From an uncultured Bacilli bacterium (GTDB lineage Bacteria; Bacillota_I; Bacilli_A; RF39; UBA660): a stretch of DNA of 64,000 nucleotides. The notes beneath the pieces are model-generated. The model was given only the letters and a program-made list of their open reading frames with translations, did no database searches and was not told the DNA's origin. The stretch is taken from the NCBI GenBank assembly GCA_944371325.1, contig CALVXO010000001.1, forward strand, positions 62,001-126,000. The letters run 5' to 3'. This document shows positions 50,484-52,494 of this stretch, piece after piece (the stretch's first letter is position 1; every line of letters starts with the position of its first letter). Position numbers and translations under genes: made by a program.

Positions 50484-50529
50484 CAAAAAAAACTAATATT
50501 TTTAATTACAAATTTGTAATATTAGTTTT
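50484..50529 (-). terminator. Intrinsic terminator of the repeat-protein gene
   Basis: Read leftward, AAAACTAATATT (50529-50518) pairs with AATATTAGTTTT (50500-50489), followed by more T. The loop carries the smaller ACAAATTTGT palindrome. The gene's stop codon at 50528-50530 touches the stem. Confidence 0.75.
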
Positions 50530-52417
50530 ATCTTTTTTTACTTGACATTACTAAATTAGCGTCTTTAACTAACGAAATTGGACCTTCTGGTATTCTATGA
50601 ACATTTGGGAAAACTTCACCCATACTTCTTAGCATTTGTTCATATTCTTTATTTAATCTTCCATTTTTATAATCTTGTCTACGGTTATTTTTCCAAACTC
50701 CTATTTTTATATCATTATACATGTCTTTTTGAGTTATATCTAAATATGAAACACCAGTTTCATTCATATATTCTTTAATTAAGTTTATCATCTCTTCAAA
50801 CGAAAAAATTTTTCTTTTTTCTTCAAACGTTTCGCCTAATTCTCTTAACACTTTTTCTTGATCTTTGCTTAGTTTTCCTTGCTTGTAATCACTTCTTTTC
50901 CCACTAATCCAAACTCCTATTTTTATCTTTTTATAAGTGGTTTTTTGCATTATATCAGAATATTTTTCTCCAGTTATTTTTAAATATTCTTTAATTAAAG
51001 ATATCATTTCTTCAAATGACAAATCTTTTCTTTTTTCTTCAAATGTTTCTCCTAATTCTCTTAATAGTCTTATTTGTTCTTGATTTAATTTACCATATTT
51101 ATAATCTTGTCTGCGATTACGTATCCAAGTACTTATATTTATTTTATTATAAACATCTGTCGAATTTATTTCATCATACTTTTTACCTGTTTGTTTCATA
51201 AATTCTTTAATTAAATTTATCATTTCTTCAAATGATAAATCTTTTCTTTTTTCTTCAAATGTTTCTCCTAATTCTCTTAATAATTTTATTTGTTCTTGAT
51301 TTAATTTACCATATTTATAATCTTGTCTACGATTACGTATCCAAATACTTATATTCACTTTATTATAAACATCCGTTGAATTTATTTCATCATATTTTTT
51401 ACCTGTTTGTTTCATAAATTCTTTAATTAAATTTATCGTTTCTTCAAATGATAAATATCTTCTTTTTTCTTCAAATGTTTCACCTAAATTTCTTAATATT
51501 TTTTCTTGATCTTTGCTTAATTTGCCTTTTTTATAATCTAATCTTTTAGTTTTTATCCATGACCCAATTTTTATAGATTTATAAATATCACGGGCTTTAA
51601 TTTTAATATACGGAGTATCTGTTTGTTTCATATATTCTTTTATTAATAATACCATTTCTTCAAATGACAATATAGGTTGATACATAAAATCTATTTGTTT
51701 TAATATTCCTATTATATCTTTTTGATATTCATGAATTCTTATTTTTTCTTTTAATATAGAAGGTATTCTTTTATCATCATATCCACTATAACCTAATTTT
51801 TTTAACATTTCTTCTCTTATATAAAATAAGTATTCATAGCTATCAACATTTTTTACAATATCGATTATAATTCTAATATCATTATTTTCTGTTAGAATTT
51901 GATCTAATTTATGTAATTCATCTTCATAAAAATCTACTGTTCTTAAAATTATTATTCCATCAAAATTTAATTTTTGTAGTTCTTCTTGTGATGTATTTGC
52001 TAAAAATAATAATTGTATTTTGTCAGTTGAATTCTGTAATTGTTCGTTATTAATACTTCCATCTAATATATAACTATCTATTTTTCCTAAATTTTGAAAC
52101 CATCTTAATACTTCATTTTGACTTTCATGTGCATGGTTTATATCTTTACAAATTATTAAATATTTACCTGCTTTTTTTGATAAATATTTTTGTATTATAT
52201 CTTCTATACTTTCAGAATTTAACATATAAAGTTTAGCTTGGTTAATTAATTTATTTAAATATTGTCTTTTCTTCTGATCACGTATTTTTTTTATTAAAAG
52301 TTCTTTTTTAACGATTTCATTCATCAATAAATATGAGAAACTAATAAAAATTGGAAGAGATAAAAAATTCCTATCTAAATCTATTTCATTAATTTGTTTT
52401 TTTTCTAAACTTTGCAT
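50528..52417 (-). CDS. Helicase-associated-domain repeat protein with orphan helicase C-like half
   Basis: The 629-residue protein has a helical N-terminus, then a segment (about 85-165) like the second half of a superfamily 2 helicase (YLIICKDINHAHESQNEVL, KIQLLFLANTSQEELQKLNF, DGIIILRTVDF), but no DEAD/Walker half. Residues 250-609 are five tandem units of exactly 72 residues, each shaped SFEEM-INLIKE...W-I-x-x-R-R-x-DYK-x-GKL...LLRELGETFEEKR, matching helicase-associated (HA) domains with their conserved Trp and R-x-x-Y-x-x-G-x-L. It is likely a nucleic-acid-binding protein, perhaps a shortened mobile-element helicase. It has its own terminator. Confidence 0.78.
   Translation of the reverse strand: MQSLEKKQINEIDLDRNFLSLPIFISFSYLLMNEIVKKELLIKKIRDQKKRQYLNKLINQAKLYMLNSESIEDIIQKYLSKKAGKYLIICKDINHAHESQNEVLRWFQNLGKIDSYILDGSINNEQLQNSTDKIQLLFLANTSQEELQKLNFDGIIILRTVDFYEDELHKLDQILTENNDIRIIIDIVKNVDSYEYLFYIREEMLKKLGYSGYDDKRIPSILKEKIRIHEYQKDIIGILKQIDFMYQPILSFEEMVLLIKEYMKQTDTPYIKIKARDIYKSIKIGSWIKTKRLDYKKGKLSKDQEKILRNLGETFEEKRRYLSFEETINLIKEFMKQTGKKYDEINSTDVYNKVNISIWIRNRRQDYKYGKLNQEQIKLLRELGETFEEKRKDLSFEEMINLIKEFMKQTGKKYDEINSTDVYNKINISTWIRNRRQDYKYGKLNQEQIRLLRELGETFEEKRKDLSFEEMISLIKEYLKITGEKYSDIMQKTTYKKIKIGVWISGKRSDYKQGKLSKDQEKVLRELGETFEEKRKIFSFEEMINLIKEYMNETGVSYLDITQKDMYNDIKIGVWKNNRRQDYKNGRLNKEYEQMLRSMGEVFPNVHRIPEGPISLVKDANLVMSSKKR
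50591..51670 (-). repeat. Five tandem 216-base coding repeats
   Basis: The units lie at 51670-51455, 51454-51239, 51238-51023, 51022-50807 and 50806-50591. Units 2 and 3 differ at only about four of 72 residues and are nearly identical in DNA; units 1, 4 and 5 are more divergent. This points to a recent internal duplication. Confidence 0.88.
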
Positions 52418-52494
52418 ATAAAATCACCTATTATTTACATTGTATATATAAATTATATCATATATTTTGATATTACTCTAATTTATTTATAAAG

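Follow-up and report, generated by a model that had tools for sequence, protein, structure and literature searches.

The window, as we call the whole 64,000-nucleotide stretch of DNA analysed here, carries on its minus strand (50528..52417) the gene for a motor-less descendant of an SF2 helicase. The encoded protein keeps one half of the helicase motor fold and a tail of five helicase-associated (HA) repeats, is present in truncated form in three species, evolves under purifying selection in one pair of them and has a repeat array that turns over. We consider it probable that this is an ATP-independent nucleic-acid-binding protein, derived from a decapitated helicase whose motor was lost in the common ancestor of the three species. 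The original prediction was that a helicase tail had become a protein of its own; this central idea proved largely right, half of the motor fold still being attached, given a syntenic full-length orthologue and a truncated form that appears to be maintained. New here are that orthologue, the probable single origin of the truncated proteins, the selection acting on them and the observation that the bacterial family uses HA arrays more widely.

Five HA repeats and the remnant of a motor

The open reading frame (genome G000; 629 aa, ATG start) is a truncated HA-helicase gene, of which Pfam recognizes the HA part. Its HA array begins at residue 244 and comprises five units of exactly 72 residues each, all on the minus strand. 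Single-unit Pfam searches and an alignment of the units place unit 1 at 51473..51688, unit 3 at 51041..51256 and unit 5 at 50609..50824; between them lie unit 2 (51257..51472) and unit 4 (50825..51040), the latter being the source of our single-unit structure model. The exactly spaced 72-residue repeats seen from the letters alone are thus evident as a 216-nt DNA period and as five stretches of the Pfam HA family. Direct repeats start 216, 216, 216 and 216 nt apart, and TRF assigns the period of 216 a score of 913, the top one among the 29 rows listed for the window; PF03457 matches the frame with E=2.2e-38 (130.8 bits, against a gathering cut-off of 28.4). Searched alone, 5 of 5 units were found; unit 1 (24.9 bits) fell short of the family cut-off, which the other four exceeded. 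RPN6_N and Peptidase_M3_N, barely above their Pfam cut-offs in the array region, we reject as chance matches to K/E-rich helices. After the array comes a conserved C-terminal tail of 26 residues (50531..50608, minus strand), common to the full-length orthologue and to a relic elsewhere in the genome.

The ATP-binding half is missing, as had been claimed: no Walker A (motif I), DExH (motif II) or RecA1 was found in the frame, and the RecA1 half of the full-length orthologue had no match in the genome of the window at E up to 1, in a search of a 92% complete draft with no positive control. The predicted helicase C-like segment stands in part. It is backed by orthologue alignment and predicted fold, which place a RecA2 remnant with eroded motifs V and VI at residues about 20-231 (51725..52360, minus strand), and it fails as a Pfam match, Helicase_C not being reached in the 629-aa protein and residues 1-243 having no Pfam helicase match. 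Those same residues 1-243 align with the RecA2 domain of the full-length orthologue of a sister species (G001), whose motif VI, QQLGRCL, reads HKLDQIL in the window protein; in the two other truncated orthologues (G014 and G009) the stretch reads KIDQLI, with deletions on both sides. Since motifs V and VI are lost from RecA2, the protein cannot be a motor.

An AlphaFold2 model of the whole protein, built from a five-sequence alignment, has a mean pLDDT of 74.9 and a pTM of 0.39, so that the relative placing of the units is unreliable. Its residues 17-231 match helicase C domains by the second of our structure aligners at modest Z-scores of 9-10, for example 1t5i (Z 9.3, rmsd 3.9, 145 aligned), and many of the matches are RNA helicases. 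With the whole protein as query, the sole Foldseek match at E<0.001 was an unrelated-looking HDAC-PC chain with a TM score of 0.16.

A full-length orthologue at the same locus

We compared the locus across the genus of 18 genomes, all 18 of which were searched with the truncated G014 protein, while the genus and outgroups were searched with the window protein. The gene is present in 4 of the 18 (G000, G001, G009 and G014). Profiles identify its flanking genes as PFOR (TIGR02176) and a P-type ATPase (TIGR01494 above cut-off, with no finer equivalog reached), and these are the flanks in G000, G001 and G014. Between them, the sister species G001 encodes a full-length helicase of 999 aa with an SF2 motor and eight HA units (Pfam: ResIII 1.7e-17, Helicase_C 2.1e-12 and eight HA stretches). 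Descent from an HA-tailed helicase, which the original prediction had proposed, is borne out by this syntenic protein, and the motor half that it had suggested looking for near homologues is found there, at the same locus. The same interval holds truncated forms of 629 aa in G000 and 579 aa in G014; in G009, where a contig start leaves only the ATPase side visible, a truncated form of 578 aa adjoins the same ATPase gene. The G014 and G009 proteins start at nearly the same domain border as the window protein and have five units by alignment, of which Pfam alone passes only 3 and 4 HA stretches. A border so nearly the same in three genomes with different sequences rules out an assembly artefact.

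Elsewhere in the genus the interval varies. In G013 and G007 it is a gap of only ~126-140 nt without a gene, and in G008 the same spot is occupied by a gene of opposite orientation (L078 3843-4733, minus strand) from the PD-(D/E)XK transposase family, which marks the locus as a variable site. In G004, G006, G010, G011, G012 and G017 the interval of about 390-970 nt shows no helicase similarity between PFOR and ATPase, and in G002 and G003 no PFOR adjoins the ATPase within the stretch examined; the locus comparison covered the genus apart from G005 and G016. An HA relic lies on the far side of PFOR in G012, and G015 has a different HA helicase on a separate contig.

Flanking signals were read by eye. 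They are an extended -10-like element, TGATATAAT (52452..52460, minus strand), 35 nt upstream of the start; AGGTGA, a possible ribosome-binding site (52424..52429, minus strand); and an AT-rich hairpin with a T run 3' of the gene (50485..50525, minus strand). TGnTATAAT also stands upstream of the truncated and full-length orthologues, and the hairpin follows 4 of 4 orthologues. A promoter scan gave 20 sites against 22.9 in shuffles, the -10 in TGATATAAT not being among them, and a G+C-demanding scan did not pick up the AT-rich hairpin. In G013, which has no gene, the hairpin is mostly retained and a promoter-like TGATATAAT stretch similar to that of the truncated genes remains; these remnants suggest that the gene was lost there, so that gene loss seems to have occurred in at least one close relative.

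A probable single loss of the motor

In a tree of RecA2 domains, the three truncated proteins are set apart from the full-length G001 protein and outgroups by a branch with support of 98/100; both other placements are rejected, with p-AU values of about 0.009. The truncated proteins thus form one clade, and the motor was probably lost once. Two independent truncations are disfavoured by the AU test, although faster evolution of the truncated genes might have biased it. In an unrooted species tree of PFOR and ATPase, G000, G008, G009, G013 and G014 are separated from G001, G007 and more distant species with support of 78 (protein) and 99 (DNA).

The full-length orthologue itself (G001, L003 991-3990, plus strand) may have an impaired motor. 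Its motif I ends in GKM, against GKS or GKT in 29 of 29 family helicases read, a possible sign that catalysis was weakened already in the G001-type protein; if this protein has no ATPase activity, catalysis would have been lost ahead of the truncation.

Selection on the truncated form and turnover of its array

The one close pair of truncated genes, G014 and G009, has a dN/dS of 0.26 [0.19-0.35]; by part, the estimate is 0.17 [0.09-0.34] for the RecA2 remnant and 0.30 [0.21-0.42] for the HA array, with overlapping intervals. The neighbouring PFOR and ATPase genes have values of 0.06-0.13 over all pairs. Neutral simulations, with substitutions only, no indels and an AT bias chosen by hand, left the frame open in 0 of 500 runs at d=0.207 (equal to the dS of the ATPase gene; mean of 21 stops) and in 1 of 500 at d=0.05; for the G000 frame, 0 of 500 remained open at d=0.162. 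Comparisons of G000 with the other species give a dN/dS of about 0.67-0.69, which suggests weak constraint there; with single genomes compared, this high value may reflect either relaxed constraint or a spell of rapid change once the gene had been truncated. The earlier claim of an independent protein gains from the occurrence of the truncated form in three species and from purifying selection in the close pair, and as judged from these substitution patterns the truncated form looks like a maintained protein rather than a decaying stub.

Units have been duplicated or converted in some lineages. Units 2 and 3 of the window protein share 94% DNA identity, against 63-72% for the other nine unit pairs, in keeping with the near-identity first noticed in the letters; inner units of G001 are up to 97% identical, and units 1-5 of G014 and G009 correspond one to one. 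The further claim of a recent change in array length held in one respect: units 2 and 3 stem from a recent duplication or conversion, and there are eight units in the full-length orthologue, but the number is five in each of the three truncated species. A C-terminal relic of a second HA gene lies at G000:C3 (L002 1498-1608, minus strand), adjoining the CTP synthase gene. Its DNA similarity stops at the stop codon, and it is 83% identical to the tail of G009 and G014, against only 71% for the tail of the window gene itself, so that a second copy probably once existed.

The HA unit and its likely target

The HA domain is a three-helix unit, and the model of unit 4 agrees, with a pLDDT of 88.8 and helices at 9-23, 41-53 and 59-68. 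This single-unit model found no PDB fold match and no DNA-binding relative in the fold search. By sequence, the best solved chain for an HA unit is 2KTA ('Putative helicase'), a weak match over unit residues 39-69 (E=0.02), which we take to be the NMR structure of an HA domain. Across 46 arrays with 278 units, the columns that vary most within arrays are model columns 38, 41, 42, 25 and 45, and the same five lead in the 42 arrays from outside the window's genus. Four of the five lie on one face of helix 2 with the spacing i, i+3, i+4, i+7, around a near-invariant Trp; matched by that Trp, they are columns 43, 46, 47 and 50 of the 72-aa unit. Such a variable face would fit contact with a different target by each unit, and unconstrained exposure would look similar; conservation of the face between orthologous units was not significant (p=0.11, p=0.94, pooled 0.51).

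The array is net positive (76 K+R against 60 D+E). From this charge, the fusions to sigma factors described below and the helicase ancestry, we infer that the window protein binds nucleic acid; its target would be DNA, to which the sigma-factor fusions point, rather than RNA.

HA arrays across the family

HA matches (E up to 0.001) occur in at least 79 of 386 family genomes. Our census covers 83 open reading frames with at least two HA units, taken from regions selected among the matches listed and from 14 helicase loci, with motors and sigma parts recognized by family-derived profiles. Of these frames, 23 have a motor, a class that is undercounted because the helicases of at least G118, G140, G150, G206 and G264 lie outside the census; a further 6 have a sigma-70 part and 54 have neither. 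Genomes G173 and G259 lie outside the census as well. Among these 54, nine reach the end of the stretch examined and one is lengthened by an N run, and 46 contain no single non-HA stretch of at least 130 aa. In 38 of the 41 regions of the motor-less class no motor or sigma frame lies within the stretch examined, so that most do not represent helicases of that type broken by a frameshift. Within the family genomes covered, HA arrays that lack a motor are common.

All six sigma-70/HA fusions are Pfam-confirmed and carry C-terminal HA arrays of 2 to 12 or 13 units (minus strand: L101 5528-8785, L097 6314-8491, L111 6002-7153, L104 6585-9371 and L144 4476-5699; plus strand: L096 5100-9365). An ordinary sigma-70 frame (363-374 aa) is present as well in each of the five genomes that have them, which makes the fusions look accessory.

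Three further arrangements were seen. A frame of 1390 aa (L095 4505-8674, minus strand) consists mostly of 17 HA units and has a second HA frame directly upstream. HA-array genes lie in tandem with gaps or overlaps of a few bases, operon-like, at L098, L100, L102, L104, L107, L124 and L117. Two frames (L109 4118-5683 and L103 4762-6216, both minus strand) have two HA units after a similar N-terminal domain of ~275 aa that has no Pfam match and is RelE-like by eye only.

Mobile-element and defence connections

Whether the gene derives from a mobile-element helicase has evidence both ways. For such an origin speak the match of the full-length orthologue to PHROG 16 'DNA helicase' (E=4.6e-40), remote matches in 165 plasmid records, all below 60% identity, and the transposase-family gene in the same intergenic spot in G008. 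Against it stand PFOR and the P-type ATPase as immediate flanks in three genomes, another full-length relative adjoining thrS, the absence of relatives from viral_contigs searched with two peptide patterns, and a single match, of 21.7% identity, among phage records. On these last two results we reject a phage origin. PADLOC has no family for the window protein or the G014 protein at E up to 1, and a role as a defence gene is likewise rejected; the motor part of the full-length orthologue (residues 103-348) matches a type IV restriction enzyme model (3.2e-23).

Discussion

We propose that, in the common ancestor of the G000 species and its two relatives, a chromosomal HA-tailed helicase at the PFOR/P-type ATPase locus would have lost RecA1. 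Motifs V and VI would then have disappeared from RecA2, whose fold was kept together with the array of five units and the 26-residue tail. HA units may line up along DNA, with the RecA2 remnant and the tail as structural or protein-contact parts, and the cellular role of the truncated protein might be to mark, regulate or block sites formerly acted on by the full-length helicase.

Were the gene instead a decaying helicase whose open frame is a temporary survivor, the high dN/dS of G000, the lost motifs, the empty locus in G013 and G007 and the relics at G000:C3 and in G012 would all be expected. But the other two truncated orthologues are constrained, the frame is open in three species and neutral simulations leave it open in at most 1/500, and we regard a pseudogene as unlikely. 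Alternatively, the truncated protein might act against the full-length HA helicases of rival elements or phages, blocking their sites or partners by occupying these itself. Retention of just RecA2, array and tail, the last common to the full-length orthologue, would suit such a competitor, as would the G008 spot with its PD-(D/E)XK gene, as at accessory loci, and the remote relatives on plasmids; viral contigs searched with two peptide patterns yielded no relative, phages one remote record and PADLOC no match to the truncated proteins, and this account, too, seems improbable to us.

That the protein is one part of a split helicase, with the motor half supplied in trans, we hold to be very unlikely indeed: the lower point estimate of dN/dS for the RecA2 remnant is compatible with it, but its interval overlaps that of the array, no relative of the orthologue's RecA1 was found elsewhere in the draft genome, and motif VI, needed for a composite ATP site, is gone. 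The many RNA helicases among the fold matches of RecA2 would agree with a structural or RNA-binding protein rather than a DNA binder, a quite doubtful reading given that the fusions of HA arrays to sigma factors point to DNA. We thus retain, as the probable explanation, a helicase-derived protein that binds nucleic acid independently of ATP.

A bolder idea, which we offer tentatively and think somewhat unlikely, is that HA repeats are modular DNA readers in which columns 43/46/47/50 set the preference of each unit, after the principle of TALE or PUF proteins, where one unit reads one base or step through variable residues. The family would then move arrays between helicases, sigma factors and free adaptors, and the window protein would be an intermediate after motor loss, a programmable DNA binder with an array that changes in length and in unit composition by recombination.

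The locus offers a syntenic case of a molecular motor that has given rise to a protein lacking one. Because a sister species retains the full-length form, the steps of the change are open to direct comparison. HA repeats emerge as a portable module: within the same family they form stand-alone arrays of as many as 17 units and are also attached to accessory sigma factors, which makes the question of what they bind directly testable. Among the literature titles listed we saw no functional study of HA repeats and nothing on sigma-HA fusions, titles being no proof of absence.

Of known systems, the closest are the HA-tailed SF2 helicases (ResIII/DEAD, Helicase_C and PF03457), with which the window protein shares its locus, RecA2, the type of HA unit and the C-terminal tail; it differs from them in having no RecA1, in the loss of motifs V and VI and in having five units rather than eight. 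Stand-alone HA-array proteins likewise combine HA units with no motor, and such HA-only proteins are already annotated elsewhere, for example on Gordonia plasmid pG135 (by annotation only, 'helicase associated domain-containing protein'); a RecA2 remnant was found in 0 of the 54 family frames profiled, whereas the window protein has one. The sigma-70/HA fusions resemble it in using the array as a motor-less module, but there the array is joined to sigma-70 regions and not to RecA2.
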